Shown here piece by piece: positions 1,406 to 48,496 of a DNA stretch of 64,000 bases. Position 1 is the stretch's first letter, and each line of letters starts with the position of its first letter. The notes beneath the pieces are model-generated. The model ran no database searches. It was not told the origin of the DNA and was given only the letters and a program-made list of their open reading frames with translations. The translations under genes and the position numbers were made by a program. Source of the stretch: Escallonia rubra (taxonomy: Eukaryota > Streptophyta > Magnoliopsida > Escalloniales > Escalloniaceae); assembly GCA_033065855.1 (NCBI GenBank), contig JAVXUO010002979.1:89689-153688 (forward strand), given 5' to 3'.

Positions 1406-3599
1406 TTTTAAGCGTGTTTCTCTAAAATACCCTTTTTGAGTTAAAGAGCTTTATATAATTAAAAATATTTTGTGACTTTCTTTCATTAGAATCCTATATT
1501 TGAAATTTAGAGTTTCTTATAATCAAGGGCACTTTTTGAAAATAGTAAAAAATATTTATGAAATATTATTTAACTTATATCCATATTAAGAAGTTTCAAC
1601 CTTTTTTGGACAAAGATTTTTTACAAACAAAATAAGCTTGCAGACAACCGAGTTACACAAATTTTACACACAAATAGCTTACACTGAATCAAGTTACCTT
1701 GAGCTTGGGAATGTATATTAGTTCTATTTTCGTCTTATTAACAAATATCTTCAAGAATTTTTCTTTTAATAGTTCAATACTTAGTAAGCTGGACTTGATA
1801 AAATAATATAACTATGAAAGTGCTATAACTCACTCAACAATTTAAGGACATACTACCACACATCCACACCTTCGTAATAAACAAACATTAGAACTACGCC
1901 ATTCACAAGCTAAGTTCACATAGAGTGATGCTTATGTAATCGTCGAGACCATATTATTGAGATTTCTTTTTTCACTAATCTAAGTCTAATCAATTTGCTA
2001 ATCAATTACAATATTTTTTGGATAAGTTTATACATTTTGTCACTAAAAGCATTAAAAGTTCACTAATGCATGTGTTTAGTGATAAAAGAATATGAATTTA
2101 ACCAAAACGGGTATGAATCAAGCCCTCGTCGTATAAGTCTCTGCTCACTTCTAAAAAAATCATGTCAAAACTTAACCTTAACACTTGCTTAAATTAAAAT
2201 CGAAGTTTACCAAGTTCTTTTTTATCTTTGTTTCTAAGGTGGACCACTTTGCATGTGGCTGCAAACTTAAATTTATCGATTTAGGACTATATTGGCATTT
2301 TAGAAGAGTAGGTGTATGACAAAACAAATGATATGTGCTATGATAAAAATCTTGTAACAAATATATGTTGAATTACTTATACAACTAAATTAATAGCCTA
2401 ATATATACTAATAAAATTACTAAAGTCATGCTAGGTTAGAATAAGCTTTAGAGTAAACTATCGAAAGACCTATAGAGTACATTATAGATTGTTTAAACGA
2501 AAAAAGGAAGAAAAAAGATAACATTAAAATTAAGCATAGCTTTGGACAAAACTGTACTTGAAATTTGGAATTTTAATTGGAAAATTTTGAAAAAAGACTT
2601 TTCCCGTACTTTAATTTTCGAATGAGAGATTCATAAATTTTTTAATTAAACTAGATCATTACAAAAAGAAATTAAACTGCAGGGGCTACTTTGAACCCCA
2701 ACAATCATTGCTACAAGAAATGTCATCACTCTAGAGAAAGAAACAATATGGATAATAGATAATACTGAAAGTCCTAAATGATGATATTTTGAACTTTAAT
2801 AAATCTGCTTAAAAATGACCAAAAACTTCAAAAGTGAACGATAAAAAACTTTAGAAGTTCTTGAAAGCTACATTACTATACTTGTTGTCTAAGCAATTAA
2901 GATTTTACGTGTCTGCTAGGTCTCTTGAGTTCATTTGATTCTTGATTTTAAAAATATAACATTTAAACTCCTAAGTCCTTTTGTTGTACAGAATTTGTTA
3001 CACATATATTATCCATAGCTCCTTTTCATCAGACATTTTACTTTTTACGATTATTTTAGGTTAAAAAGTTTGACTGTTTATTAATATCACTTATTAAATT
3101 CAAACTTGTTCTCAGTTTCTAACTTTTATCTCGCACTTTCTAGACTTATATATGCCATAAATTTATATTATAAGATATTGGACAACTCAAATATATACAC
3201 TTCACATTTTTAACCGTAAAGCAAAGCTTGCAGTGATTGATGAGAATTAAACATTTATGAAAGATTTTGAAGCTGATTAAAATGTCAACCTTGGATAACG
3301 AAATGTAATATGGAATAGTTAAGATTCTATATAATGACACTTGATGTGACAAAAGAAACAAGTACACTAAATAAAAAAAATGTTGGTAATTGGCATTAAT
3401 AATTTGAATTTGAAAGTAAAACCGTGTTTTCTGTAATGAACTTTTCATAGTTCGAGTCTTTCATCAACATTTCCCAATTGATTTACTTATCATAGTTAGC
3501 TAAAATAATTTTGTACTAATTAAGTTTAGTAGCGTTTTTAACTAAGACCTAATTTATTTTAAATCCTTATTAAACGTGTAAAGCTCATGATCGTTACTA
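1406..3599. other. AT-rich spacer with one stray copy of the 238-bp repeat
   Basis: No gene can be supported here. A partial fourth copy of the 603-1262 repeat lies at about 2005-2135, with its 'cactaaaagcattaaaagttcac' landmark near 2041. The short ORFs on both strands are low-complexity and look like chance. Confidence 0.55.
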
Positions 3600-4640
3600 G
3601 GTTTATAAAATGGTTAGATGGGCATAATTGTCAACATATATTGTGATCTTGAGAGAATTTCCATTTAGACATGTAGCTGAGGCCGAAAGGAAAATGGTTC
3701 TTACACCGACTGAGCTGTATTTAATTTATTGTTTGTCTTTGTCTTTGACTATCTTTTGTTACGTTTGTTGGAAACTACTCAGTGAATGGTTCTTTAATTG
3801 GTCTTGTATTTCCTAACTTCTAGATTTACATAACAGTTAACTTTGATTTAATTTTTCTTAAAAGTATTACAACAAGGATTGTCCTTTATTTCAATGCTTG
3901 GTAGCGCTTGCTTGAAATTTCAAAAGGAGGGTTTCCTCTTGGCTTCCTATCAGCAAAAAAAAGAAGACTGACTAATGCTACTGACTCCTCTGAAAAGTCA
4001 ATGCATGACCATTTTACATTGATTTATTTTTTCTTAAAAGTATTACAACAAGGATTGTCCTTTATTTCAATGCTTGGTAGCGCTTGCTTGAAATTTCAAA
4101 AGGAGGGTTTCCTCTTGGCTTCCTGTCTTATAGATTAGCAGAAGACTGACTAATGCTATTGACTCCTCTGAAAAGTCAATGCATGACCATTTTAAATGGT
4201 TGAGGTGGGTCTCTGATAACTGCTAATGGTCGACTGCCACGTTGGCTCAGGGTAATTCGTTGTTTCCTTTCCTTCTCACCAATGAATTGAATGATTTGTT
4301 TTCATTGGTGTAATACGGAGTCCAAGTTCAAACTTCTCATGACTTCATACTCAAAACTCGTCTTTCTTCTTGTCTTTTCTAACATCATCTCTTCCAAAAA
4401 TGTTTGGAGGTTATGTAATTTAACGCACTAGTTGACCTCAAATGTTTGTTGAGGAAGAATGGTAGAAGCCGGGTAAAGTAAGAGCCAAATAGAGGCCTTG
4501 CGGTTCATAATCTCAGAGTGATCTTATTTGGAAGGGTCAGTCTAAAATACTAAATGAATCATTCTCAGAATGAAACCAGTATTCAATCCTCCGCAATATT
4601 TAATATGGACATTTTGGTGGGATAAGTTTTGTTGGAAGTA
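3600..4640. repeat. Receptor-kinase 3'-flank paralogous block, copy 1
   Basis: This block is recognisably the same as 40395-41425 and 23640-23970, which lie downstream of the two receptor-kinase exons. Shared landmarks include 'tttcaaaaggagg', 'gcagaagactgactaatgc', 'aatgtttggaggt', 'agttgacctc', 'aagtaagagccaaatagagg' and 'ggttcata'. It is non-coding and marks an older copy of the kinase-gene neighbourhood. Part of it is duplicated in tandem (see 3843-4198). Confidence 0.75.
3843..4198. repeat. 176-bp tandem duplication
   Basis: The stretch beginning 'ttgattta' at 3843 and ending 'gcatgaccatttta' is repeated from 4019 with only a few changes, a spacing of 176 bp. The paralogous block at 40.5-41.0 kb has a single copy, so the duplication happened in this copy alone and is fairly recent. 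Confidence 0.85.
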
Positions 4641-4748: not shown

Positions 4749-4812
4749 CTCAATGCTCTTCAAGAACTCATCATTGTTCTTACCAAATGAGGTTTGCTGA
4801 AGATTCAAAGAA
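4749..4812 (-). pseudogene. Exon fragment of an unrecognised gene, left of the Mutator-like insertion
   Basis: On the minus strand, 4812-4749 reads as a short coding-like stretch (frame ...LNLQQTSFGKNNDEFLKSIE) that ends at a good donor, GAG|GTAATTTG. The Mutator-like element entered here: the TSD ttcaaagaa at 4804-4812 is repeated at 9894-9902. The continuation of the host sequence is at 9903-9915, bounded by a possible acceptor (tttctaag|G). I do not recognise the protein. Two short flanking frames at 9.9-10.6 kb may belong to the same gene. It could also be chance coding beside a splice-like GT. Confidence 0.4.
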
Positions 4813-4979
4813 GGGTTAATTTTATCCAGCACCCTGTACTTAGGGGTCAGTTGCACCCATCACCCTAGGGTTTTAAAATTGGCACCCAACACCAAATGAC
4901 GGTCAAACTGCCTGTTGACTAAACGGCTGTTAGTTTTTCAGGGGCAAAATGGGATTATTGACCATAAAGCTTACATGTC
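4813..4979 (+). repeat. Left terminal inverted repeat of the Mutator-like element
   Basis: It is the inverted counterpart of 9695-9893. Shared landmarks are 'taggggtcagttgcaccca', 'ggcaccca', 'atgacggtcaa', 'ctgttagtttttcaggggc' and 'acatgtcat'. The right copy carries about 30 bp more inside. The hAT TSD overlaps its inner edge. Confidence 0.9.
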
Positions 4980-4995
4980 ATCTAGAGTTGTCAAA

Positions 4996-5275
4996 CGGGC
5001 CGGGCGGCCCGCGGGCTGGCCCGACCTGGCCCGGTTTTGGCCCGGGCTGGCCCGGCCCCGTGGATGAACAGTAGAGGCCAGCACACATAGGGCCTGGGGC
5101 CTGGGCCTGGACCAGGCCTGAAGAATCTGGGAAAAAGGCCCGGCCCGGTTTGGGCCCGGTTACGGCCCGGCCCGGTTTTGGCCCGGCCCAGTTTCGGCCC
5201 GGTTTCGGCCCGGGCTTGGCCCGGTTACCTGGCCCGGTCTGCGGCCCGGATTTTGGCCCGGTTTTGGCCCCACTT
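4996..5275. repeat. Left subterminal GGCCCGG-rich array of the hAT element
   Basis: There are dozens of overlapping GGCCCGG / CCCGGTTT / GGGCC words in about 280 bp, far richer in GC than the surroundings. hAT transposases bind short subterminal repeats beside the TIRs, so these are the likely binding sites. Long open frames here on both strands (Gly/Pro/Ala-rich) are artefacts of the repeats. Confidence 0.8.
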
Positions 5276-5579
5276 TTTTTGAATCTTTTGCCTTCCCCCC
5301 CTTTCTTCTCCCCCTTTTCCAAACTTCCACTTTTACCCCCCCAACAGCTATATAACGGCTAGTTTGGGGGGTATTTTAGTCTAACCTATATTTTTCAACT
5401 CCTTTACACTCTTACCCTCCCCAACAACTATAAACGGATAGTTTGTAGGGGTATTTTGGTCTTTTGTGAAGTTTCTAAAATCTATAAATTCACACCATTT
5501 CTCTCTAATTTTTCACACCAATCTTCTTACTCTCTTCTTACTCTCACAACAAGCTTTGCTACTAGTTTCCTCTCCAATT

Positions 5580-5800
5580 ACTACTCTTGCTAATTACTAC
5601 TAGTATTTACTAATTAGTAAGCTTGTTTATTAATTACTAGTCTTGCTAACTGCTGATTCATTACTCATACTCTCTACGATTTGTTACTCGTTCATTCTTT
5701 TAATTACTACTAGTATTTACTAATTAGTACTCTTGTTTATTAATTACTAGTCTTACTAAATTCTTTTTAATTACTAACTCTCTAATATTTGTTACTCGTT
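5580..5800. repeat. Tandem duplication in the hAT 5' leader
   Basis: An approximately 115-bp phrase ('actactagtatttactaattagta' ... 'ttgttactcgttcattctttta', given here as its two ends) occurs at about 5590-5704 and again to about 5810, between the left array and the transposase start. It probably lies in the promoter or 5' UTR of the transposase gene. Confidence 0.6.
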
Positions 5801-5878
5801 CATTCTTTTAATTGTTATTTCTTATTACTACTCTTATAATTGTGTATTTAGTTACTCTTACAAAGTTTAGCGTGAAAT

Positions 5879-8155
5879 ATGTCTGGATTATTGAACAAAA
5901 TGAGGCGTGCAACGTCATCACGAAAGAAATCATCATCATCGCAAGCACCACCACCAGCACAAGCGCCAGCGCCACGGCCATCAGAAACACCAATCCAAGC
6001 ACCAACACAACCATTCGTTCGTGGACGAATGAGCACAGGCTCTATGATAGATACCCAAGCCAATTGGGAGTTCAATCAAAACATTCCAGATTTTGAATAC
6101 ACGCCTGATGAAGACCCCCCGCATTATAGTCAAGGACGCAACTCGGTTGGCGAAGCTACTACTCAGTGGCATAATCTCAACCCTATGCCTGGTCATGATG
6201 AAGAAGGGCCGAGCAATGCCTCCGATAACGTGCCAGAAGTCCAAAGGGGGAAAAAGAAGAAAGCCGAGTGTTGGAATCATTTCGACTTAATTACAGTGGA
6301 CGACATCCGAAAAGCTCAATGTAAGTACTGTCTTAAATTATTTTCGACTGGTAGTGGTAATGGACATCTTAACAGGCATTACCCTCAGTGTGCACCTCGA
6401 CAAGGCCACGTCGAACCTACCCAAACGCAATTATCTTTTGACGGTAAGTTATTTGTTTATAATCAGCGAGAGCAAAGAGACGGTCTCGCTGAATTTGTTA
6501 TTCACGATGAACAAGCCTTTTCTTTTGCCGATAATCCTAAGCACTCTAGATATATGAACACCTACGTTCAACCTTTGTACAAAAAGGTTCATAGAAACAC
6601 AACGAGGTCCGATGCACTCCGACAGTACAAGGCTGCCAAAGCACGCCTTATCGATTATTTCGATAAATTTGACGGTAAAGTTAGTCTTACTTCTGATATT
6701 TGGCAATCTCCTTATACTTTTGTTAGTTATTCTTGTGTGACCGCTCATTGGATTGATGCAGATTGGGTTATGCACAAGAGAATCATCGCTTTCGAGCACT
6801 TCCCTTATCCGCACGATGGAATGAACATTGCTACTCTTATATTAAAAGCATGCAACACATTTAAAATTAAGGATAAGATTATGAGTGTTAGTTTTGATAA
6901 TGCTTCTAATAATAAAGCTGCTGTTGCAGCTTTAAAGGAGACGCTTCAACCTGTACTTGATGGTGAATTATTTCATGTTCGTTGTGTTTGTCACATTATT
7001 AACTTAATTGTTCAAGATGGTTTAGCTGCTGCAGGAGATATTCTGCTCAAAATGAGGGGTATGACAGCGTATGTTAATGGCTCGAGTTTGAGAACACAAC
7101 AATTTAAAACGTTGTGTGTTCAATATAATATGCCTCGCAGGAGAGCAGTTACAGATGTGGTCCACAGGTGGAACTCTACATACCACATGCTTTTACACAT
7201 TCTGGCATACCGAGAAGTCTACACGCATTTTCTACTAACCCAGTTCCCAGCCGGCTTGCCAACTCAAGAGGAATGGCAGATGGCCACATACCTAGCTGAA
7301 TTTTTGGAGGTATTCTACACGTCTACCAATTTATTGTCTGGTACGTACTATCCCACCTCTCCTCTCGCTGTAATAAAAATTCTGAAGATGGCTACAATGT
7401 TAACAAAATGGAGATATATAGGACCCTTTAGGGAAATAGTACAAGTGATGGATCAAAAATTTAATAAATATTGGAGGAAACTGCCTGCTATTTTTACTGT
7501 GGCTACTTGTTTAGATCCTAGGTTAAAGTTGCATGGCGTGAACGCCTCGATACAAGAGATATCGAAATTAATGCGCTACACAGCAGATGACACAACCTTG
7601 CTCACAGCAAAAGTGAGCAAGAGGTTTGAGGACTTGTTCAACCTCTATCGTAATTCTGCTGACGTGCGCGGGCGAGCTACATCATCATCCACTGCTGAGA
7701 GGTATTATGCGCCATACCTTCAAGGCTTTGAACATCTAGTAGCAAGACAACTACCAGGTGAAGGTACTTCTAATTCGGGAGGTTCGTATAATTTTTCCTC
7801 TTTTAATGAGATTGGTGTATATGCAAATACTGATCATTATTCTGATTTATCAAGGCAAGAACAGATTAATTTTAATTTGTTAAATTTTTGGAAACAAAAT
7901 CAAAACATGTATAAAACTTTATCCCAAATTGCACGGGATGTACTGCCAGTGCAAGCCTCCACGGTTGCTTCAGAGTCGGCATTTTCAGCAAGCGGGAGGG
8001 TTTTGGATGACAGGAGGAGTCGTCTTAACCCCGAGTCGCTCGAGCTATGTGTATGTTGGAAGGATTATCTTGATGCGAAATACCGCGAGCAAGATAAACC
8101 GATTGATGATAGGAAGAGCAGTGACTCGGATATTGAAGTACTTCCGGATGATTAG
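5879..8155 (+). CDS. hAT transposase (BED zinc finger, RNase H-like, hAT dimerisation domain)
   Basis: This is a 758-aa transposase that would bind the ends of the element and carry out cut-and-paste transposition in the nucleus. After a Ser/Pro/Gln-rich N-terminus, a BED-type zinc finger lies near residues 128-176 (motif C-x2-C ... GHLNRHYPQC). The catalytic RNase H-like region follows, with aspartates in TSDIW (about 273) and SFDNASNN (about 340), then the conserved CHIINL and HRWNSTYHML blocks. The C-terminal hAT dimerisation domain (about 650-735) contains the SESAFSASGRVLDDRRSRL block. Length and domain order fit full-length Ac/RICESLEEPER-like plant proteins. The ATG at 5879 is the first in a long frame with no upstream in-frame competitor. 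I see no stop or frameshift. The host-domesticated SLEEPER branch is less likely, because the TIRs and TSD are intact. Confidence 0.93.
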   Translation: MSGLLNKMRRATSSRKKSSSSQAPPPAQAPAPRPSETPIQAPTQPFVRGRMSTGSMIDTQANWEFNQNIPDFEYTPDEDPPHYSQGRNSVGEATTQWHNLNPMPGHDEEGPSNASDNVPEVQRGKKKKAECWNHFDLITVDDIRKAQCKYCLKLFSTGSGNGHLNRHYPQCAPRQGHVEPTQTQLSFDGKLFVYNQREQRDGLAEFVIHDEQAFSFADNPKHSRYMNTYVQPLYKKVHRNTTRSDALRQYKAAKARLIDYFDKFDGKVSLTSDIWQSPYTFVSYSCVTAHWIDADWVMHKRIIAFEHFPYPHDGMNIATLILKACNTFKIKDKIMSVSFDNASNNKAAVAALKETLQPVLDGELFHVRCVCHIINLIVQDGLAAAGDILLKMRGMTAYVNGSSLRTQQFKTLCVQYNMPRRRAVTDVVHRWNSTYHMLLHILAYREVYTHFLLTQFPAGLPTQEEWQMATYLAEFLEVFYTSTNLLSGTYYPTSPLAVIKILKMATMLTKWRYIGPFREIVQVMDQKFNKYWRKLPAIFTVATCLDPRLKLHGVNASIQEISKLMRYTADDTTLLTAKVSKRFEDLFNLYRNSADVRGRATSSSTAERYYAPYLQGFEHLVARQLPGEGTSNSGGSYNFSSFNEIGVYANTDHYSDLSRQEQINFNLLNFWKQNQNMYKTLSQIARDVLPVQASTVASESAFSASGRVLDDRRSRLNPESLELCVCWKDYLDAKYREQDKPIDDRKSSDSDIEVLPDD

Positions 8156-8577
8156 GTAATTTGTTTTTATTTTCCTCTTTTGATCCTTTTGGTTGACGTT
8201 GCAGATTTCTTGATCTTTGATTGCTGATATTTTGGATAGACATGCATTATTATTTTGATTGTTAGAGTTTTAAGAATAAATTTTTTCACAAAATATACTT
8301 TTTTCCACATAAATAAAAAAATGTTATACACGCAAGATATATATTTTTTAAAAAAAAAAAAAAAATAGGTAACTTCGCCTGTTTGTTTACAAGCAGCCGG
8401 TCCCAAGCCCGGATAAAAGGAGGAGGGCCTATGAACACATTTATTATTTTTCTATATAAATTGTTATGTGTTAAGATTTTATTAATAAAGCTCACCAAGA
8501 AGAGTATGAAAATGTTTAACATATTAATAAAGCTCACCAAGATTAGGTTCGTTAAATTGTGAATATTGCCTAGAGGC

Positions 8578-8727
8578 TAGGCCCTAGATATTGGGCCTAG
8601 GGCCAGGGCCTGGACTGGGCCTAGGTTTGCCTTCGGCCGGCCCGGTTGGCAGCCCCACTGGCCCGGCCCTGGCCCGGCCCCACTGCAGGCTCGATGGGCT
8701 TGGGCTGGGCCGGCCCAAGCCCGGCCC
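8578..8727. repeat. Right subterminal GGCCCGG-rich array of the hAT element
   Basis: This is the counterpart of 4996-5275 in inverted arrangement, ending directly at the right TIR. It includes GGCCCAAGCCCGG and GGCCCGGCCC words. Confidence 0.8.
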
Positions 8728-8748
8728 TTTGACAACTCTAATGTCATC

Positions 8749-9066
8749 CCAGGTAGTGACACATGGCCAATTGGTTGTCCACGTCATTTCCCTCCAACAT
8801 CCCTTATTCTCTCTCCTTCCACATTTCCCTCCAACAGCCCCTCTCTATCGTTCTGGGGAGTTCGCCGGAGTACGACCGTTTTCTCGGGATCTTCGCGGGA
8901 GACTTACGGACCCTTTGGGTCACTTCCTTGCTGGCCTATAAATACAGTTTTCCTCTGTTTCCTGCAATTTGAACCAAAATAAACGCAAAAAGCCCTTTAC
9001 TCGTGACTAATTAGAAATTGCTCATCTCTGCCATCTTCCCAACAAACTTGCAAGCAAGCTCAAAGT
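8749..9066 (+). promoter_or_regulatory. Captured HSPRO promoter and 5' UTR inside the Mutator-like element
   Basis: This segment lies directly upstream of the captured HSPRO coding start. It contains a plausible TATA box (CTATAAATAC near 8937-8946), followed by an A-rich leader of about 120 bp to the ATG at 9067. It continues in frame order with the HSPRO coding part, so the promoter was probably captured together with the gene. Whether it still drives transcription is unknown. Confidence 0.55.
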
Positions 9067-9694
9067 ATGGTCGGGCTCAACTGCAAAGCAAACATGGTGT
9101 CTCCCGATATACGAACCAAATCGCCGAGGCCGTCGAACAAGCTGAGCATACCGGTGCTGCCGCCGGTTCGCGTCGCGGATCTGGCGCCGGCGTCTGATTC
9201 GGCTTGCTCGGCCTACGAGCACTACCTGCGTCTGCCGGAGCTGAAGAAGATCTGGGACGCCGAGGCCGTCGAACAAGCTGAGCATACTGGTGCTGCCGCC
9301 GGTTCGCGTCGCGGATGTGGCGCCGGTGTCTGATTCGGCTTGCTCGGCCTACAAGCACTACCTGCGTCTGCCGGAGCTGAAGAAGATCTGGGACGCCAAG
9401 GAGTTTCCGGATTGGAAAAACGAGTCGGTTCTGAAACCGGCTTTACAAGCGTTGGAGATCACTTTCCGGTTCGTGTCCACCGTGCTGTCGGATCCGAGGC
9501 CGTATACGAACCGGAGGGAGTGGAGGCGGCGGCTCGAGTCGCTCGCGACGAGTCAGATTGAACTTATTGATGTGCTGTGTGAGGACGAGGAAGAGGAGAG
9601 CGAGACGCGGGGGACGGCGCCGATCGTTGATTTGAGCACGTCGGGATGCGTGTTGGCTCGAGAAGGGAGCTCGGCGGAGGTGTGGAAGCTGCAT
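9067..9694 (+). pseudogene. HSPRO-like: Captured 5' part of an HSPRO (Hs1pro-1-like) gene
   Basis: The reading begins MVGLNCKANMVSPD and carries the family block SDSACSAYEHYLRLPELKKIW. After it come EFPDWKNESVLKPALQALEITFRFVSTVLSDPRPYTNRREWRRRLESLA, ATSQIELIDVLCEDEEEESETRGTAPIVDLS and SSAEVWKL (described in parts). This matches the N-terminal third of HSPRO1/HSPRO2 proteins (about 460 aa), which act in basal defence and bind SnRK1. A 136-bp segment is duplicated in tandem (9123-9258 and 9259-9394). Because 136 is not a multiple of three, the two copies lie in different frames and the fragment cannot encode a continuous protein from its ATG. It stops at the inner edge of the right TIR, as expected for a captured fragment. 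Confidence 0.88.
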
Positions 9695-9893
9695 GACATG
9701 TATGCTTTAAGGGGCAATAAGACTATTTTGCCCCTGAAAAACTAACAGACGTGTGGTCAAAGTGCCTCTTGACCGTCATCTGGTGCTGGGTGCCAAGATT
9801 TTTCAAAATTTTGGTGCGGGGTGCCAAAATTAGAACCATAAGGTGCTGGGTGCAACTGACCCCTAAGTACGGGGTGTAGCGTAAAATTAACCC
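9695..9893 (-). repeat. Right terminal inverted repeat of the Mutator-like element
   Basis: It is the inverted counterpart of 4813-4979. It ends TGTAGCGTAAAATTAACCC and is followed directly by the TSD ttcaaagaa (9894-9902). Confidence 0.9.
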
Positions 9894-9902
9894 TTCAAAG
9901 AA

Positions 9903-24132: not shown

Positions 24133-25247
24133 CTAGAAGATACCCATACTGGAACTCTCTATGGCGGAAGAATCTTCTCTTGATCGTGGTGGAGAAGATA
24201 AAACAGGCTTTGGGGGGATCTGCAGAGACTGTATGCTCCCTTCTAACATCTCCACCACCCTAGTCATTGATGGGCGATTTGAGGGGACAGTTTGTATGCA
24301 ACATAAGCTCACTATCACCATCTTCCTTGCCATTTCATTTTCCGCCTCACTCGTTATACCATTGTGCGCACCGAGTTCATCTAATTCAAGCTGATTGTAT
24401 ATCCAATCAGGAAAGTAGATTTCAGTTGAACCATCAACTTTGGGCTTGATTTTGTTCCTCCCTCCAACCATTTCTAGAACCATCATCCCATAGCTGTACA
24501 CGTCTGACTTGTGAGAGACCCCTCCAAAGTGCCTACAAAATACTTCTGGAGCAATATACCCAACAGTACCTCTAGCATTCAACATTGACACAAGACTCTC
24601 TTTTCGGAGACATAGTTTTGCAAGGCCAAAGTCAGAGATCTTTGGGCAGAAGTCCTCGTCTAGAAGGATGTTATGAGGCTTTATGTCCAGATGCAAGATT
24701 CTCGTGTTACAGCCACGGTGCAAGTACTCTAGTCCTCGAGCAATGCCTATTGCAATCTGAGACAGTCTTTCCCACCCCAATTGGTGATCCGCCAAGGAGC
24801 TTTCCTTATATATGAATTTCTCAAGCGACCCATGTGGCATGAACTCATAGATGAGAGCTTTCTTGTGACCCTCGAAACAAAACCCAAGAAGGGTTACAAC
24901 GTTTACATGGGAAGTCCGACTGATACTTGCAACCTCATTAATTAATTCTTCACCACCTTTTGATTCATTTAAAACCTTCACTGCCACAAGACTACCATTC
25001 GGTAGCTTTCCTTTATATACACAACCATAACCTCCTTGGCCTAATTTAACTAGAAAGGAATTGGTTATCTTCTTAAGATCAGAATAAGAATACCTTTTCG
25101 GTGCAAGGGTCCCATAACTGCTGAGAAAATTCTCTACGTTGTGATAGTTTTCTTTCTTCCTCCATACCATTAATTTACCTAGTGCAGATCTCCATATGAA
25201 GCCAGCGACTACAATTACGAAAATTGCAAATCCCGCAACCGAAAATG
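24133..25247 (-). CDS. Transmembrane-kinase exon of an LRK10L/Lr10-like receptor kinase, copy 2
   Basis: This is the last exon, open from a splice acceptor (TTTGCAG|CATTTTCGG at 25247) to its stop. It starts with a membrane helix (AFSVAGFAIFVIVVAGFIW) and a juxtamembrane stretch. A full Ser/Thr kinase follows: [11 protein letters not shown] loop, AVKVL lysine, [12 protein letters not shown] catalytic loop, [16 protein letters not shown] and [10 protein letters not shown]. The loop has HLD in place of HRD, as in the LRK10L2/PR5K group. No ATG belongs at the exon start, because the ectodomain exons should lie upstream. Upstream, a 6.2-kb Copia element begins 7 bp from the exon, and beyond the remaining intron lies a PP2C exon. 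The ectodomain is therefore missing, and the exon is probably an orphan despite its intact frame. Confidence 0.9.
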
Positions 25248-25254
25248 CTGCAAA

Positions 25255-26207
25255 TGTTGGGGTATACGGTATGATGGCTTTGTGACTGAAAGAATGATCG
25301 GCTTCGAGGCACGTTGTAAAACGCTCTCCTTAAGTTTATATTTGCCCCCACCAAAGAAAACGGTGTGCAGCGGGTTACCGGCAAATATCCTCCAAGATAC
25401 AACGAAGCGCTTTAGTGAATAGCGTTTGCACACACGATATTCACCCCACAGATATGTGTATGGAATTCTGGATAATGGGATTTACAAGTAAGAAATTCTG
25501 CAGAAATTTCTTGTTGTAAAAGATCTGCCGAAAGGAAAAATGAAGAGAGTAGAGGCTTATTACTAGGTCCGAAAATCTGACCATTGTGCTCTATTTATAA
25601 AGCACTAGTGGTTGCTAATCAAGTGTCACACCTTTTCATCATCACCGAAAGCAATCTGGACCGTTGGATCAGAAACCGTTAAGATTAACTGTTCAGATCC
25701 GGACTGGTAACTAACCAGCTCCCAACAGTTGGGTCTGTCCAACTTGGAACTACCCAGCTGCAACTATCCGGACTGGTAACTAACCAGACCCGAGTGTAAC
25801 CACCCAGCTGCCAAGGGTCGGATCCGACCCGGTTCCGTTGAACCGGCGGTCTAGTTTTCGTCACGAAAACTTAAAGGCGTCTAATCGCGTCTCGCGACGA
25901 TGCGCACGTGCGAAGTGCAAAGTGCGCCATCAAAGCGCCACATTGCGCCTCACAGCCCACTGCCACGCTCGCGCGCGCGTGCGATTGTTCCTCGTATGGT
26001 GCTTCGCACCATACTCGGTGCACATGCACACACCTTAGCATACCACATAAGTAATAAAGTAAGTGGAGTACTTTATTATATACCCACTTACCTTTTCAAA
26101 TCCCTTCTATGTGGGATTCCTTCATTTTTACCTCTTCACATTCCTTTCATCATTTTGACAAAGAAAATGAACCAAACTTGACACTATATTTTGGAAAACA
26201 CTAACAA
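25255..26207 (-). repeat. 3' LTR of the whole-looking Copia element
   Basis: The minus-strand element ends here. The LTR holds a CG/GC-dinucleotide-rich stretch near 25895-25985, and a polypurine tract lies just beyond 26207. Confidence 0.9.
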
Positions 26208-26853
26208 TCCCCACCATTTTACAAAATATAAAATAAAAAACAAAACAAAAAACTAGATCTTATTATCCAGTGAAGTACATGCATAAATGAAGATGTCTTA
26301 CGACTTGAATCTTCACTTAGTGATTACATAACAAGACTAATCTGAAAAAGTGTGGTAGATAAACTTTGAACCACCTATCCTTGTTGACTAGCCGGTCACA
26401 TATCACACATGAAACTCCTATCCATACACAAATCCAGAAAACTGCTTATACAATAAATGGCCATGTAATTTGTATCTTGTTTTTCATGAGTGCTCTAGAG
26501 TTAAGCCCTTAAACTCAACAGAAGCGGACCCCCTTCACCCTCACTAGCAGGGCTATCAAAAGTGTAACGTAACTAACACTCCAAAGAATAATTCTTTTAT
26601 AGACCTATTAAGAGTATAATACTCACCCTATTCCTTCATTACGGTTACCAAGCACATGACCTTGGGATGACTAAAATTTGTGCTTGCAACCACCATCATA
26701 ATGTACTTTTGACTCGTTGAACTCAAGACTTGGTGTTAGCAAGCGTTGAGTCGAGATTTCCATCATTGGTGATCCTTGACATGGGCTTGAGACCCATCCC
26801 TCGTGAGGTTCTAATAATCATTTCCCTTGGAAGCCCTTTAGTTAACGGATCTG
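26208..26853 (-). other. Copia 3' region between gag-pol and 3' LTR
   Basis: This 0.65-kb region has no long ORF. It leads from the end of the long frame to the polypurine tract. No additional gene (such as an envelope-like ORF) is visible. Confidence 0.6.
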
Positions 26854-29800
26854 CTAAATTTTCCAATGACCACCTTCGGTAATCAACTGCCTCACGTAGC
26901 TATGTCTAAGACCAATATGTCTAGACTTTCCATTATACACTTCGCTACATGCCCGTGATAGAGTTGATTGACTATCACACCTTATCGATATGGGAGCCAT
27001 AGGCTTAGGCCATAAAGGAACCTCTAAAAGCAAATTCCTTAGCCATTCTGCCTCCTTGCCCCCTGCAGCTAAAGCAATAAACTCTGCTGCCATGGTAGAA
27101 TCAGTAATGCAAGTCTGTTTCTTCGAACCCCAGGATATTGCACCCCCACCAATTGTGAAAATCCATCCACTTGTGGAAGCATAATCCTCCCGATTCGTAA
27201 GCCAACTGGCATCTGTGTATCCTTCCAAAACAGAAGGATACCCATTATAACATATGCCGAAATCCATAGTTCTTTTAAGGTACTTAAAGACCCTATATAT
27301 TGCATTCCAATGCATATTACTAGGACAACTAGTATATCTACTAAGTTTTCCTACTGCATAAGCAATATCCGGTCTAGTACAAGTCATGGCATACATTAAA
27401 GAGCCTATTGCACTCGCATATTCTAGTTGTCTCACAGCTCTACCATCATTAGGAGACAACTTAATACTCTCATCAAACGGAGTACTAACTGATGTGCTGT
27501 CTAAATGGTCAAACTTTTTTAAGACCTTCTCAATATAATGAGATTGTGACAATGTTATGCAACCATTATTCCTTATGATTTTAATTCCTAAAATCACGTC
27601 AGCAACACCCATGTCCTTCATTTCAAAATTATCGGATAAGAATTTCTTAGTCTTTACAACTTGTTCCAAGTCAGTACCAAAAATGAGCATATCATCTACG
27701 TATAAGCAAATGATAACTCCCTTACCGCCATCGAACTTGCTATACACACACTTATCCGATTCATGTATCTTGAAACCATTAGACATTACAATTTGATCAA
27801 ACTTTTGATGCCACTGCTTAGGGGCTTGCTTAAGTCCATACAATGACTTAATCAACTTACAGACTTTATTTTCTTGCCCACGTACAACAAACCCTTCTGG
27901 TTGTTGCATGTATACTTCCTCATCTAATTCACCATTTAAGAATGCCGTTTTAACATCCATTTGATGAATTACTAGCTTATGGATGGAAGCTAGTGCTATA
28001 AGCACCCTAATAGTGGCTATCCTTGCAACTGGTGCATAAGTGTCAAAGTAATCGACACCTTCCTTTTGGGAAAATCCCTTAGCCACTAACCTTGCCTTAA
28101 ATTTTTCAATCGATCCATCAACCCTTAACTTTTTCTTGAAGATCCATTTACAACCAATGGGTTTAGAACCAGGTGGTAAATCCACCAATTTCCATGTTCC
28201 ATTTCCCATAATTGAATCAATCTCTTCATTTATTGCTTCCTTCCAAAAGGAAGAATCTTGAGACCTCATGGCCTCCTCATAAGTCCTAAGGTCGGATTCC
28301 ACATTTAAAACAATCGGTATGGAGTTTTGTATTGTCGTCCTAGTTCCTTCTACCAAATACATGTAGAAATCGGGTCCATAGGTTTTAGCAATTCTCATTC
28401 GTTTGCTCCTCCTAGGTTCCACTTCATTTTCATGGTTTTCCTCAACTTCACGTTGACCTTCCTTTTGCTCAACTTGCTTAGGAAGTGATTGGAACCTACT
28501 TTCGTCAAAGATGGCATCTCTAGATTCAATGATAGTGTTTTTAGAATAATAATCATTCTGTTCCACTACCATGAACCTATATGTTTTACTGTGTAAAGCA
28601 TAACCAATGAAAATACATTCAATGCCTCTTTCACCCAATTTCTTTCTTTTTGGTTCCGGAACTCTTACAACAGCCCTACAACCCCATACTTTAAAATAAT
28701 TCAGATTAGGCTTCCTTTTCTTCCATAACTCATAAGGAGTAACGTTATTTCCTTTAGTTGGAACTCTATTTAATATGTAGCAAGCTGTTAATAAAGCTTC
28801 CCCCCAAAATCCTTTTCCTAGACCCGAGTTGGAGAGCATGGCATTAACCATTTCGACTAATGTCCGATTCTTTCTTTCCGCTACACCGTTCTGTTGTGGT
28901 GTATATGGTGCAGAAAGTTCATGTACTATGCCATTTTCTTCAAAAAATGGTGGCTCATAGTACTCTCCTCCCCTATCGGTTCTAAGTACTTTTATTTTGG
29001 CATCACAAAAATTTTCTACTTCATTTTTATATGTGACAAAACTAGGCATGGCATCATTTTTATTATGCAACAAATAAACATAGCAATACCTAGAATAGTT
29101 ATCAATAAAAGTCACATAATATGAGTTTCCTCCTAACGAAGGAGAGGAGTGAATATCTCCTAAATCACTGTGTATTAAATCTAAAATCTTAGACACTCTT
29201 TGTCCATTTTGAAAAGGAGCTCTAGTGATTTTAGTAAGCATACACGTCTTGCAAAATCCTTTATCTACATGCATACTAGGCAAAAGATTCAATTTAACCA
29301 TGTCATTAATTTTCCTAGTATTAACATGTCCTAAACGATTATGCCAAAGAAAAGATTGTGACTCAATAATATAAGCAGAAATAATATTCTTATTATTAAT
29401 ATTGAGCTTGAACAATCCATCACAAAAATATCCCTTGCCCACAAAAACCCCTCCCTTAGAGAGTACAAATTTATCAGCTTCAAAAACAAGTTTGAAACCA
29501 AACTTGTTAAGCATACAACCCGAGACTAAATTTTTCCTAATTTCGGGCACATGACAGACATTAGTAAGAGTGACAACTTTTCCGGATGTAAACTCGAGCT
29601 CGACATTTCCTTTGCCCGCAATTTGCACAATTGACGAATTTCCCATGTAAAGAATGCTTCCATCCTTCACCGGTTCATAGGTTGTAAAAAACCTCTTGTC
29701 TTTGCACACATGGCTTGTCGCACCCGAATCAATCCACCATGCATCGTCATCTTCAAGGACATTTACCTCACTGATTACCGCGACTAAATTATTTTCGGTC

Positions 29801-30636
29801 GCCTTTTTCTGTTTCTTCAAGGCACGGCAATCACGCTTATAGTGCCCTGGTTTGCCACAGTGAAAACACTTTCCTTTGTGTTTTTTCTTCTTGTCCTTGT
29901 CCTTGTCGTCGTCATCATTTCCTTGAAGTTTCCTTCTCTTGTTCTCACGGGAGTTCTTCTTGGATGATTCTCCTTCTTCCACGGCCAAGATTTTAGAAAC
30001 GCCCTCGCTTTTAGACTTTTCTTCCTTGCGCAAGTCTTCCTCAATCCGAAGATGAGTACCCAACTCGTCAAGGTTGATGTCTTCCTTGCGATGCTTAAGG
30101 CTGTTTCTAAAATTCTTCCAAGAAGGAGGCAATTTATCAATGATAGATGTAACCACGATAAACTCATCCAAGGCTAACTTGTGTTGGGAATAACGATCAA
30201 GAATACTTTTAATCTCATTAAACTGTTCCATAACCGATCTACCATCAACCATTTTGTAATAAAAAAATTTAGAAACGATGAACCTTTTACTGGTGGCATC
30301 CTCGGTGATGTAGCGACGCTCCAATTGGTTCCAAAGTTCCTTAGCGGTCTTGACAGTATGATAGGCATCGAACAGCGTGTTGGACATGCCATTAAGAATA
30401 TGTCCTCGACATATCTCATCATCTTGATCCCACCTCAATCTTTCACGTGTCTTCGCAACACTTTCCTCCTCATTTTCACCGGGTTCCGGAGGTCTTGGAT
30501 TCACGATCACATAGTACACTTTCACTGTTACTAGTAGAAAATGCATCTTCCTTTGCCAACGAACGAAGTCCCCACCATCAAAACGCTCCAAGCGGTGGAA
30601 ATCCGAGCCCATGTCTTTCAATGTCACGAACGCCAT
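26854..30636 (-). CDS. Copia gag-pol polyprotein (1260 aa)
   Basis: A single frame from an ATG at 30636, about 25 bp inside the 5' LTR. Domains in order: GAG (about residues 1-240, with FDGGDFVRWQRKMHFLL), a Lys/Asp-rich linker, CCHC zinc knuckle CFHCGKPGHYKRDC (about 260-275), protease DSGATSH (about 305), GAG-pre-integrase (HNRLGHVNTRKIND), integrase core (about 490-650, with PYTPQQNGVAERKNR), reverse transcriptase (about 800-1050, with QMDVKTAFLNG and CLYVDDM), and RNase H (about 1120-1250, with YTDASW). The length matches intact plant Copia polyproteins. The lineage within Copia is not assigned. Confidence 0.94.
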   Translation of the reverse strand: MAFVTLKDMGSDFHRLERFDGGDFVRWQRKMHFLLVTVKVYYVIVNPRPPEPGENEEESVAKTRERLRWDQDDEICRGHILNGMSNTLFDAYHTVKTAKELWNQLERRYITEDATSKRFIVSKFFYYKMVDGRSVMEQFNEIKSILDRYSQHKLALDEFIVVTSIIDKLPPSWKNFRNSLKHRKEDINLDELGTHLRIEEDLRKEEKSKSEGVSKILAVEEGESSKKNSRENKRRKLQGNDDDDKDKDKKKKHKGKCFHCGKPGHYKRDCRALKKQKKATENNLVAVISEVNVLEDDDAWWIDSGATSHVCKDKRFFTTYEPVKDGSILYMGNSSIVQIAGKGNVELEFTSGKVVTLTNVCHVPEIRKNLVSGCMLNKFGFKLVFEADKFVLSKGGVFVGKGYFCDGLFKLNINNKNIISAYIIESQSFLWHNRLGHVNTRKINDMVKLNLLPSMHVDKGFCKTCMLTKITRAPFQNGQRVSKILDLIHSDLGDIHSSPSLGGNSYYVTFIDNYSRYCYVYLLHNKNDAMPSFVTYKNEVENFCDAKIKVLRTDRGGEYYEPPFFEENGIVHELSAPYTPQQNGVAERKNRTLVEMVNAMLSNSGLGKGFWGEALLTACYILNRVPTKGNNVTPYELWKKRKPNLNYFKVWGCRAVVRVPEPKRKKLGERGIECIFIGYALHSKTYRFMVVEQNDYYSKNTIIESRDAIFDESRFQSLPKQVEQKEGQREVEENHENEVEPRRSKRMRIAKTYGPDFYMYLVEGTRTTIQNSIPIVLNVESDLRTYEEAMRSQDSSFWKEAINEEIDSIMGNGTWKLVDLPPGSKPIGCKWIFKKKLRVDGSIEKFKARLVAKGFSQKEGVDYFDTYAPVARIATIRVLIALASIHKLVIHQMDVKTAFLNGELDEEVYMQQPEGFVVRGQENKVCKLIKSLYGLKQAPKQWHQKFDQIVMSNGFKIHESDKCVYSKFDGGKGVIICLYVDDMLIFGTDLEQVVKTKKFLSDNFEMKDMGVADVILGIKIIRNNGCITLSQSHYIEKVLKKFDHLDSTSVSTPFDESIKLSPNDGRAVRQLEYASAIGSLMYAMTCTRPDIAYAVGKLSRYTSCPSNMHWNAIYRVFKYLKRTMDFGICYNGYPSVLEGYTDASWLTNREDYASTSGWIFTIGGGAISWGSKKQTCITDSTMAAEFIALAAGGKEAEWLRNLLLEVPLWPKPMAPISIRCDSQSTLSRACSEVYNGKSRHIGLRHSYVRQLITEGGHWKI

Positions 30637-30660
30637 TGTTGCAAAATATAAACTTAAGAT

Positions 30661-31440
30661 TGTTGGGGTATACGGTATGATGGCTTTGTGACTGAAAGAA
30701 TGATCGGCTTCGAGGCACGTTGTAAAACGCTCTCCTTAAGTTTATATTTGCCCCCACCAAAGAAAACGGTGTGCAGCGGGTTACCGGCAAATATCCTCCA
30801 AGATACAACGAAGCGCTTTAGTGAATAGCGTTTGCACACACGATATTCACCCCACAGATATGTGTATGGAATTCTGGATAATGGGATTTACAAGTAAGAA
30901 ATTCTGCAGAAATTTCTTGTTGTAAAAGATCTGCCGAAAGGAAAAATGAAGAGAGTAGAGGCTTATTACTAGGTCCGAAAATCTGACCATTGTGCTCTAT
31001 TTATAAAGCACTAGTGGTTGCTAATCAAAAGTCACACCTTTTCATCATCACCGAAGCAATCTGGACCGTTGGATCAGAAACCGTTAAGATTAACGGTTCA
31101 GATCCGGACTGGTAACTAACCAGCTCCCAACAGTGCAAAGTGCGCCATCAAAGCGCCACATTGCGCCTCACAGCCCACTGCCACGCTCGCGCGCGCGCGC
31201 GCGCGTGCGTGCGTGCGATTGTTCCTCGTATGGTGCTTCGCACCATACTCGGTGCACATGCACACACCTTAGCATACCACATAAGTAATAAAGTAAGTGG
31301 AGTACTTTATTATATACCCACTTACCTTTTCAAATCCCTTCTATGTGGGATTCCTTCATTTTTACCTCTTCACATTCCTTTCATCATTTTGACAAAGAAA
31401 ATGAACCAAACTTGACACTATATTTTGGAAAACACTAACA
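30661..31440 (-). repeat. 5' LTR of the whole-looking Copia element
   Basis: This is the same sequence as 25255-26207 but shorter overall, with a longer alternating (GC)n/(GT)n stretch near 31190-31215. It is followed by the TSD gcaaa. Confidence 0.9.
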
Positions 31441-45364: not shown

Positions 45365-45519
45365 CCCGTGCATTTGCACGGGCATATTAGCTAGTATAAT
45401 TACCAAAATGAAAGACTTTATTTAAACATCAAGCATGGGCTACATTTTACAGTAACTATTAAGCCTACTGCTCTTCAGCGCCACAACAACAATAGAGACG
45501 TAAATACCCTTGTTAACAA

Positions 45520-46637
45520 CTAAAGGATCGCCATATTGGATATCTCTATCGTAGAAGAATCTTCTCTTGATTGCGGTGGAGAAGATAAAACAGGCTTTGG
45601 AGGGATCTGCAAAGACTGTAAGCTCCCTTCTAACATCTCCACCACCCTAGTAATTGATGGACGACTTGACGGGACGATTTGTATGCACCATAAGCTCACT
45701 ATCACCATCTTCCTTGCCGTTTCGTTTTCCGCCTCACTTGTTATACCATTATGCACACCAAGTTCACCTGATTCAAGGTGGTTGTATATCCAGTCAGGAA
45801 AGTACATTTCACTTGTATGGTCAACTTCAGGCTTGATCTTGTTCCTCCCTCCAACCATTTCTAGAACCATCATTCCGTAGCTGTATACATCTGACTTGTG
45901 AGAGACCCCTCCAAAGTTCCTACAAAATACTTCCGGAGCAATATACCCGACAGTACCTCTTGCATTCAACATTGATACGACACTCTCTTTTCGGGGACAT
46001 AGTTTTGCAAGGCCAAAGTCGGAAATCTTTGGGCAGAAGTCCTCATCTAGAAGGATGTTGTGAGGCTTTATGTCCAAATGCAAAATTCTCGTGTTACAAC
46101 CACGGTGCAAGTACTCTAATCCTCGAGCAATGCCTATTGCAATTTGGGACAATTTTTCCCACCCCAGTTGGCAGTCTTTTAAGGAACTGCCTTCATATAC
46201 AAATTTCTCAAGGGATCCGTTCGGCATGAATTCGTAAATAAGAGCTCTCTTGTGACCCTCAAATACGAAACCTAAAAGAGTTACAACGTTAACATGGGAA
46301 GTTCGACTAATACTTGCAACCTCGTTTATAAACTCTTCTCCCTTACCTTCTGATTTATTTAAAACCTTCACCGCCACAGGATTGCCATCACGTAACTTTC
46401 CTCTGTATACACAACCATAACCTCCTTGGCCTAATTTAACTTTGAAGGAGTTGGTTATCGTCTTCACATCTGAATAATGGTACCTTTTCGGTGCAAGGGA
46501 CCCATAGCTCTTGAGAAAGGCTTCCACGTCGTGATAGTTTCCTGTCTTGCTCCATACCATTAATTTACCAGGTGCAGATCTCCATTTGAAGGCACTGACT
46601 ATAATTATGAAAATGGCAATTACCGCAACCAAAATTG
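45520..46637 (-). CDS. Transmembrane-kinase exon of an LRK10L/Lr10-like receptor kinase, copy 3
   Basis: The exon is open from the acceptor CTGTCTGCAG|CAATTTTGG (46637) to the stop at 45520. The order is the same as the copy at 24133: membrane helix ([15 protein letters not shown]), [11 protein letters not shown] loop, [38 protein letters not shown] and [10 protein letters not shown]. The protein is roughly 85% identical to copy 2 by eye. There is no start codon of its own; the natural upstream exons are the ectodomain pieces at 48.5, 53.7 and perhaps 62.7-63.6 kb, now broken. The helix, kinase core and catalytic residues are complete, so the exon could still be used if a new 5' exon were recruited. 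Confidence 0.9.
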
Positions 46638-47242
46638 CTGCAGACAGTCAAGGCAAAAACTGAGTTTTGAAACACGAGAACCACTGCAATGCAAACAAAC
46701 AAAATTGTGGAGCCCCGCCAGCCACAAACCACAAATAGAGAATGGGATATAAGTTACCTACCTATAGTGTATAGCAGTCGTTTCTTATTAGAACAACTTA
46801 TGAGTAAGGAAACAGCTAAAGCAATCCCACGCCAAAACTAAACTACACATCTTCAGATTCTAGGGAGCAATATACTATAAGTTTTGTAGTCTGTCTTGTC
46901 GGGTATTAAGTGAAAATTCCTCAAATTCTTTTACACTATATTAAAAAATAATTATACATGGGACTTACAGAATAATTGATTAACCTAGAGAGAGATGCAT
47001 TGTAACTTGGAAAGGATTCAACCGATTATTTGACCTTAGCTAGCTGAAAGAGATATACAGCACATAGGTTTTCAAGAGAAATAAGTAGTTTACTTGATAG
47101 GACTCTATTCTCTTGAAGACTTCGACTAAAGCAAAGTCATCCCAAACTCAACAGATGAAATCCTTTCAGAGGGGCATATGTCAAAGATCTAGATACATAA
47201 TATGTTACCTACACCTTAGGAAAAAAATGGGCAGCTTACTCT
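46638..47242 (-). other. Intron upstream of kinase copy 3
   Basis: It matches 31446-32165 beside copy 2. It is AT-rich with no exon. A Mutator-like element interrupts it at 47252. Confidence 0.7.
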
Positions 47243-47251
47243 AGTGAAACA

Positions 47252-48496
47252 GGGTTAGTTTTACACTACACCCTATACTTAGGGGTCAGTTGCACCCAGC
47301 ACCCCGTAGTTCTAATTTTGGCACCCAGCACCAAAATCTTTAAAATCTTGGTATTCAGCACCAAATGACGGTCAAACTGGCCTTTGACCATACGTCTGTT
47401 ACTTTTTAAGGGGCAAAATGGTCTTTTTACTTGTTATATCCACATTTCGTCCACGTCAGCTCCAAATGACCACAATAATTAACATCAGACCCTCCACGTC
47501 ATTTCCTCACCCTTTTTCTCTCCCAAACTATTCATCTTCCCAACCAATATCGAAACGCGCGGCCAACTCCTCCGACCGAAACAACTGCCTGACGAGCCAT
47601 CGCCTCTGACCGAAGCCACTGCCCGGTGTGCCACCATCCCCGCCACCACTCTCCCCATCATCACGACCCACCACAGTCGGCCACCCACGACCAGCCATAA
47701 CTACCCACAACCACCAATCCCGAAACCCACGGCACCCTCTCCGATTGAATCGCGATCACCAATGCCTATTGTTGATGACCGCCACCTCTACCACAAATCC
47801 TTCACCCACGACCACCCACAACCACCAATCCCTCCCTCACCCACGGTCACCACCTCAAACCGAATGACGACCACCAATAACCGACGTTCGACCAACAGTG
47901 ACCATTCAATGAGCCATTATCGCCTCCAATCGAATGACCATCAGACACTCCCCCTGCCTACCGCCGTAATCATGACATACCCAATCACCCCATCACCTGA
48001 TCTACCCATCGATCTCAGCGAGCCCAATCAGCCACTGCACAACATCATCACCATATAATCTGTGGTCCCAATCGCGGGTGAGAGTGACAAGTCAGGCTAG
48101 GTGCAGAACGCGTGGGGCCACGCTGGATGCCAAAGATCGCGGCGACGCTAGAGGCGGGTTCTTGGTGCACGGTGGTTGGGGGCACCGAGAGAAATAGAAG
48201 AGAGAGAGAGAGAGAGAAAGAAAAAGAGAGAGAGAGAGAGAGAGGAAAGAGAGAGAAAATAGGGAAGAGAGAAACGACGTTGGGCTTAGGGGGTTGGAGC
48301 TGACTAGGATTTCATGGATGAAAATACCATTTTGCCCATAAAATTTTAACAGACGTCTGGTCAAAGGCCATTTTGACCGTCAATTGGTGTTAGATACCAA
48401 GTTTTTTAAATTGTTGGTGCCGGGTGCCAATTTTAAAACTACGGGGTGCTAGGTGCAACTGACCCCTAAGTATAGGGTGTAGCGTAAAATTAACCC
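47252..48496. mobile_element. Second Mutator-like element of the GGGTTAATTTT family
   Basis: The element is 1245 bp with inverted ends of about 170 bp (GGGTTAGTTTTACACTACACC ... GTAAAATTAACCC, ends only). The TSD is a perfect 9 bp, AGTGAAACA (47243-47251, 48497-48505). The ends match those of the 4813-9893 element. The inside (about 47430-48325) is GC-richer and Pro/Thr/His-codon-rich on the plus strand, but I cannot match it to a gene. It may be captured sequence. A (GA)n run lies at 48193-48245. It sits 12 bp inside the intron, next to the donor of the ectodomain exon. Confidence 0.92.
48193..48245. repeat. (GA)n microsatellite
   Basis: An imperfect GAGA run with an AAAGAAAAAG interruption, inside the Mutator-like element. 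Confidence 0.9.

Follow-up and report, generated by a model that had tools for sequence, protein, structure and literature searches.

Introduction

Pack-MULEs are non-autonomous Mutator-like elements (MULEs) that carry gene fragments, as defined in parts of PMC8277862 and PMC4858842. In the accessible text of PMC8277862, MULE gene capture is described as having been studied most in rice, where 36% of Pack-MULEs (481 of 1337) are multicopy, and its mechanism is presented as still debated, with gap filling among the proposals. The terminal inverted repeats (TIRs) of MULEs measure about 100-500 bp according to portions of PMC3310237, which describes the tomato Pack-MULE PM-ZIBP, with 14 copies, two of them 944 and 1372 bp long. 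Here we analyze a Mutator-like element that holds part of an HSPRO gene and occupies positions 4813-9893 of a 64,000-nucleotide stretch of the Escallonia rubra genome (hereafter the window; G000:C1932:89689-153688). We consider it highly probable that this element belongs to an amplified family of non-autonomous Pack-MULEs whose HSPRO fragment was derived from a single gene.

Like the Pack-MULEs treated in PMC8277862 and PMC4858842 (partial texts), the HSPRO family exhibits 9-11-bp target site duplications (TSDs), long TIRs, a GC-rich captured part, a parent elsewhere that lacks the TIRs, and multiple copies. Unlike the Pack-MULEs compared, it could be matched here to an HSPRO-less carrier that has the left module in common, which makes the states before and after capture comparable, and it includes 37 distinct copies. 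Similarly, it resembles PM-ZIBP (PMC3310237, in part) in its asterid host genome, its nature as a gene-fragment MULE, its size and its 9-bp TSDs. PM-ZIBP was diversified by tandem TIRs in 13 of its 14 copies, as the same partial text reports, whereas the HSPRO family owes its diversity to internal deletions and to duplications within the captured HSPRO segment. The HSPRO family adds to the known Pack-MULE class an instance in which parent, carrier and product are all found in one genome. Indeed, the single-copy parent, a carrier, the hybrid and dozens of derivatives, with junctions placed near base resolution, offer a single event on which to compare models of capture. We found no paper on HSPRO capture by a Pack-MULE or other transposon in the open-access collection searched, which covers few subscription journals.

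Results and Discussion

A Pack-MULE with an HSPRO fragment between its TIRs

The element is exactly 5,081 bp long, starting with GGGTTAATTTTA and finishing with TAAAATTAACCC, and a reading made from the sequence alone had already placed its perfect 9-bp TSD and long inverted ends correctly; we find the ends to be TIRs of 170 and 201 bp, which are 71% identical in gapped alignment. The same reading had proposed a Mutator-like element that captured a host gene, and this is borne out by the TIRs, the TSD and the matches to Pfam Hs1pro-1_N that lie between the TIRs (E 2.2e-16 for the first of two open reading frames (ORFs), at 9067-9333, and E 2.9e-60 for the second, at 9290-9745). Both TSD length (within 9-11 bp) and TIR length are those of a MULE. 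In addition, a gene fragment is present between the TIRs and a MULE transposase is not, since the two HSPRO-part ORFs match Hs1pro-1_N only and the transposase encoded inside the element belongs to a nested hAT transposon with a TSD of its own. Without the nested hAT the MULE is 1,315 bp long. The sequence-only reading did not mention this hAT, the wider family, the carrier or the shifted frame of the window copy.

Searches were run against 566,129,122 bases in 3,222 contigs; candidates were listed at a first look and a subset was then scored, and the counts given throughout apply to the scored places. For the right TIR, 40 places were scored of 1,364 candidates, all 98-100% identical, and this TIR therefore belongs to a very large family. 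To compare the insertion with empty sites, a 310-base join of the element flanks was used as query, for which 40 matches were scored of 171 candidates. Thirty-seven of these run continuously across the insertion point at 71-86% identity (a base-by-base example is found in locus L044). The other three comprise the two halves of the window's own site and one match (C927) to one side only. The two halves cover query bases 1-173 and 165-310, so that they overlap by exactly the 9-bp TSD, and this is the only split site. The uninterrupted matches indicate that the insertion target belonged to a repeat family. The sequence-only reading had looked to the orthologous empty site; our comparison covered paralogous sites, and there the expected unoccupied target is seen, many other members of the target repeat within this genome being empty.

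A single parental gene and its capture junctions

The C-terminal HSPRO domain, Hs1pro-1_C (PF07014), has a single match in the 566-Mb genome, at C2371:97867-98637 (one candidate, one scored). This match lies in an intact 478-aa ORF at C2371:97261-98697 (2262-3698 of the fetched locus L023), which we take as the parental HSPRO gene. Its best protein match is from Escallonia herrerae (94% identity over 98%), and "nematode resistance protein-like" is among the names seen in its protein matches. HSPRO has a defence-related role. No MULE TIR match was found in the 5-kb locus around this gene; the parent is thus identifiable elsewhere in the genome and lacks the TIRs of the element. A second HSPRO gene as the true donor was also considered and rejected, none being seen in the assembly beyond the single Hs1pro-1_C match.

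With the parent in hand, both breakpoints could be resolved. The captured segment corresponds to bases 2132-2752 of L023 (621 bp), and consists of the TATA box and leader, 130 bp ahead of the ATG, followed by 491 bp of coding sequence (CDS). At the left junction, GGGTCACTTC is followed by 7 bases (8927-8933) and then by the parent from base 2132; these bases match neither the HSPRO-less carrier nor the ungapped parent alignment, and may be filler or a very short imperfect parent match. At the right junction, HSPRO sequence GTGGAAGCTGCA is joined to the TIR border TGACATG with one base, 9693, in common. The HSPRO fragment is therefore confined between the TIRs and does not run on into host DNA, an extension that the sequence-only reading had named as grounds for refutation.

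The earlier description of this fragment as the N-terminal third of HSPRO (163 of 478 codons) with a TATA box included was accurate, parent homology beginning at the TATA box. Its further statement that the gene was captured with its promoter has to be narrowed, since HSPRO contributed the TATA box, the 5' leader and the 5' coding part, and no 21-mer is common to the 39 element sequences examined and the 531 bp upstream of the segment in the parent. Capture of the full promoter was rejected on these grounds; what was taken, as judged from these matches, is the end of the core promoter. Similarly, the last 946 bp of the parental ORF, beyond the captured part, have no 21-mer in common with the elements examined.

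GC content is 60% in the captured CDS, 56% in the rest of the CDS and 46% upstream. The window copy differs by 0.8% from the family majority sequence and by 3.2% from the parent. It also contains a 136-bp tandem duplication that is found neither in the parent nor in copies such as L018, L020-L022 and L024. Because 136 is not a multiple of three, this duplication breaks the reading frame: conceptual translation of the window copy from the HSPRO ATG gives 88 aa, with the final part out of frame. The majority sequence of the family differs from L023 at 15 of 621 positions, eight of which are replacements. Seven of these eight can be checked against the E. herrerae protein, which sides with the MULE at five (codons 22, 26, 42, 95 and 100) and with L023 at two (codons 62 and 135). 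The five-site agreement suggests that the MULE has kept an earlier version of the HSPRO N-terminus at these positions.

A carrier MULE that lacks HSPRO

One fetched locus, L046, is a MULE without HSPRO. When compared to the long HSPRO element L021 it has 564 left-side positions in common at 95% identity, up to GGGTCACTTC, and a right TIR that is 97% identical, with other DNA in place of HSPRO between them. A search with the 781-bp carrier interior resulted in 40 scored places of 237 candidates, L046 included, with 696-781 bp matched at 93-100% identity. Thirty of these start within the first 4 bases and stop within 2 of the end of the query, and ten run from base 83-86 to the end; beside each of the latter ten lies a short second match in inverted orientation, to query bases 733-781. 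No donor gene for the upstream module of the carrier emerged from this search, all 40 scored places matching the carrier interior from bases 1-86 to the end. At several places the right TIR directly follows the carrier interior, for example at C2664, where the interior at 358378-359151 is followed by the TIR at 359151-359351, and likewise at C2153. In fact, carriers and HSPRO copies have the right TIR in common at 98-100%. From these comparisons, positions 8749-8926, which had previously been counted with HSPRO, are carrier MULE DNA, and HSPRO replaces the 3' interior of the carrier.

These relationships suggest a sequence of events. A carrier of the L046 type would have exchanged its 3' interior for the 621-bp HSPRO segment that runs from the TATA box to codon 163, presumably in a single capture through template switching while a break or gap in the carrier was repaired. 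The resulting copies would have been moved in trans by a putative MuDR-type transposase and may now be mostly silenced. The window copy later received its hAT insertion.

At 47252-48496 the window contains another MULE with TIRs of the family described above, 81-85% identical to 9693-9893. It is flanked on both sides by AGTGAAACA, and its interior is different; a 191-aa open stretch within it gave no Pfam match.

Amplification of the HSPRO family

The HSPRO part together with the preceding carrier stretch was used as a query, giving 116 matches (40 scored of 155 candidates). Thirty-eight stretches were fetched: the parent L023, the HSPRO-less L046 and 36 others that carry the HSPRO fragment, singly except in L029, where there are two copies. 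Adding the window copy brings the number of HSPRO copies examined to 38, of which 37 are distinct, L031 and L032 being one duplicated locus (99.5% identical over 5 kb). At the 3' side the breakpoint is nearly uniform: 35 of the 38 copies end at parent base 2752, while L009 and L045 align 4 and 7 bases past it and L043 stops short of it. On the 5' side, 13 copies start at parent base 2132, one at 2129 and seven at 2144-2146; the remaining 17 are without the captured 5' end, their first homology being at 2270 (14 copies), 2398 (two) or 2327 (one). Derivatives carry internal deletions and 136-bp tandem duplications, the latter reaching four units and part of a fifth in L015.

Because the breakpoints and the carrier module are common to the copies, we favor one capture. 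The competing possibility, that several MULEs captured HSPRO independently, might account for the differences in internal structure among copies and for the seven of 38 whose detected homology sets in 12-14 bp after the most frequent start, and the unresolved base of the family tree provides no independent tree support for either course. It is nevertheless very unlikely, given that 35 of 38 copies have the same parental end base and that the carrier module is common to the copies up to the same junction.

The hybrid is present at many separate sites, most with their own TSD. In a TSD test that allowed shifts of at most 4 bases per end, with a few ends extrapolated by hand, 34 elements were judged besides the window: 24 have perfect TSDs of 9-11 bp, four have one mismatch and six have none acceptable. 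The test included L046, and L032 duplicates L031; L026 was omitted, and L036, L043 and L045 are without an end. Such data also bear on whether HSPRO host DNA merely came to lie between unrelated inverted repeats through segmental duplication or an assembly artefact. The assembly is a draft of contigs and L031/L032 is indeed a duplicated locus; against this stand the distinct TSDs at separate sites, the many empty sites and the membership of the TIRs in a very large family, and, L031/L032 aside, no pair of fetched loci has a megablast match above 1,500 bp. This explanation is refuted for the family as a whole, and we give it practically no weight.

Several observations weigh against the favored account of one capture, amplification by transposition and neutral cargo. 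The six elements without an acceptable TSD (L015, L017, L028, both L029 copies and L035) imply that some copies did not arise by clean transposition, and some element ends in the test were extrapolated by hand. The family tree, which was rooted by hand, has short inner branches with weak support, as low as 0.03 near the center, and an unresolved base, and the full-length tree places L046 among the HSPRO copies with support 0. The tree neither proves nor refutes single capture, and we infer the direction from carrier to HSPRO form from continuity of the carrier module and from copy number rather than from a dated tree. Finally, four of the six copies that read at least 150 codons do so largely in the HSPRO frame (L021, L024, L025 and L027), and their sequences make coding use of single copies possible. 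The shape of the tree is as after rapid spread.

The two copies in L029 (1953-3067 and 4750-5864) are arranged head to head, 1.68 kb apart and 99.2% identical, and neither has a TSD of its own. Their left flanks, CTGGAAATA for the first copy and TATTTCCAG for the second, are reverse complements of each other. This suggests that copies underwent inversion or recombined with one another, and the arrangement could potentially give rise to a hairpin RNA.

Neutral cargo, protein or small RNA

The captured CDS of 35 copies (L032, L043, L045 and L046 excluded) contains 121 private substitutions, which divide into 43 synonymous, 72 replacement and 6 stop changes. The neutral expectation is 39.8 +/- 4.7, 76.3 and 4.9 +/- 2.1, respectively, and the captured coding sequence fits neutral drift. 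Among the 20 copies that keep the ATG region, six read at least 150 codons and 14, the window copy included, read fewer. A coding function was therefore rejected as unsupported, on the basis of the neutral substitutions, the 14 short frames and the lack of a listed Escallonia protein. This also bears on the idea of a truncated HSPRO protein that acts as a dominant-negative or decoy and is useful and selected. In its favor, L024 encodes 180 aa (HSPRO residues 1-163 and a TIR-encoded tail) and L021, L025 and L027 read 168, 173 and 157 aa; yet the substitutions match the neutral expectation, 14 of the 20 frames fall below 150 codons, and a search of a protein collection with the L024 product listed five proteins, none of them named Escallonia. 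We regard such a protein as scarcely credible.

A different possibility is that the family serves as a source of 21-24-nucleotide small RNAs, for example from the L029 inverted pair, that would lower parental HSPRO in trans. The window copy has perfect matches to 300 of the 601 21-mers of the parent segment, which together cover 540 of the 621 bases; the L029 copies are head to head and nearly identical; and only a single HSPRO gene was found. In addition, C-to-T or G-to-A changes at CpG or CHG sites make up 52 of the 121 private substitutions, which suggests methylation of the copies. Small RNAs from Pack-MULEs have been described in rice (parts of PMC4858842 and PMC8277862). On the other hand, any recent capture would be expected to leave matching k-mers, and the methylation reading is indirect and was made without a control set. 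Overall, we consider a small-RNA role unlikely. Were such RNAs to reach the parent, the family would exemplify natural control of a defence-related gene by a transposon. The more specific proposal that the amplified family, and the L029 pair especially, yields double-stranded RNA through which the sole HSPRO gene detected is silenced or tuned is distinctly improbable; if true, a defence-related gene would be controlled by its own transposed fragments. There is precedent in maize, where an inverted Mutator copy, Mu killer, silences MuDR. The most likely function for the plant is none, the HSPRO fragments looking like decaying, neutral cargo.

A young hAT transposon nested in the element

The features of the element and of the nested hAT are collected in Table 1.

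Table 1. Coordinates of features in and around the window element.
Feature	Position	Strand	Details
Left TSD of MULE	4804-4812	.	TTCAAAGAA (9 bp); from sequence reading and joined-flank empty-site search
Left Pack-MULE TIR	4813-4982	+	170 bp; final 8 bp are the left hAT TSD copy
Left hAT TSD	4975-4982	.	ATGTCATC (8 bp)
Nested hAT	4983-8740	+	3758 bp; ends TAGAGTTGTCAAA...TTTGACAACTCTA; GGCCCGG-rich subterminal regions
hAT transposase ORF	5879-8155	+	758 aa, uninterrupted; Dimer_Tnp_hAT, hAT-like_RNase-H
Right hAT TSD	8741-8748	.	ATGTCATC (8 bp)
Carrier-MULE internal module	8749-8926	+	Not HSPRO-derived; ends ...GGGTCACTTC, where L046 and HSPRO elements diverge
Left capture junction	8927-8933	+	7 bases matching neither L046 nor ungapped parent alignment
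Captured core-promoter end and 5' leader	8934-9066	+	L023 2132-2261; TATAAATA starts at 8937
Captured HSPRO coding part	9067-9693	+	Codons 1-163 of 478 and 2 bases; frame shifted by duplication
HSPRO-part ORFs	9067-9333; 9290-9745	+	88 aa; 151 aa
136-bp tandem duplication	9122-9401	+	144-bp copies 9122-9265 and 9258-9401, 96.5% identical
Right Pack-MULE TIR	9693-9893	-	201 bp
Right TSD of MULE	9894-9902	.	TTCAAAGAA (9 bp); perfect match to left copy

The nested element fills 74% of positions 4813-9893 (3,758 of 5,081 bp). Its TIR, TAGAGTTGTCAAA, is short and its TSD is 8 bp, as is characteristic of hAT transposons, and its transposase matches PF05699 (E 1.1e-22), the C-terminal dimerisation domain, and PF14372 (E 1.9e-12); a zf-BED match of 16.6 bits falls under the 20.6 cut-off for that domain. 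Protein matches include RICESLEEPER-like and putative Ac transposase names, and Hermes transposase weakly matches the C-terminal part (E 7.4e-9). The best-scoring match has 39% identity over 85%, and the sole E. herrerae protein among the 120 matches listed has 74% over 31%. Because the hAT interrupts the MULE it is younger than this MULE copy, and it has no part in the capture of HSPRO.

A genome search with the transposase resulted in 59 scored places of 3,295 candidates, all 59 of which cover the full 758 residues at 99-100% identity, and 54 of which have no internal stop. At the DNA level, ten loci including the window differ pairwise by 0.09-1.7% (best-matching piece, gaps excluded), the window copy being a member of the most divergent pair. 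Perfect 8-bp TSDs are also present in L054 and L055 and, as judged by eye from the ends, in L050, L051, L052 and L057; L053 has one mismatch, and L049 (at a contig start) and L056 are without a left end. The nested hAT is therefore part of a young, high-copy family (loci L048-L057), most scored copies of which have an open transposase frame. To our knowledge, so many full-length open copies are unusual for a DNA transposon. The GGCCCGG-rich subterminal regions at both ends may be transposase-binding sites. Upstream of the transposase, the hAT also contains a 110-bp tandem duplication (5591-5813, 88.7% identical).

Other features of the window

Elsewhere in the window, a protein-kinase ORF on the minus strand (24136-25329) adjoins a copia-type ORF (26857-30735) within the region 24136-31440. 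The copia-type ORF is flanked by 475-bp direct repeats at 25255-25729 and 30661-31134 that are 99% identical, and these are probably the long terminal repeats of a recent insertion in a kinase gene. A stretch that is 85% identical to the kinase ORF is located at 45454-46642, within the region 45454-46647.

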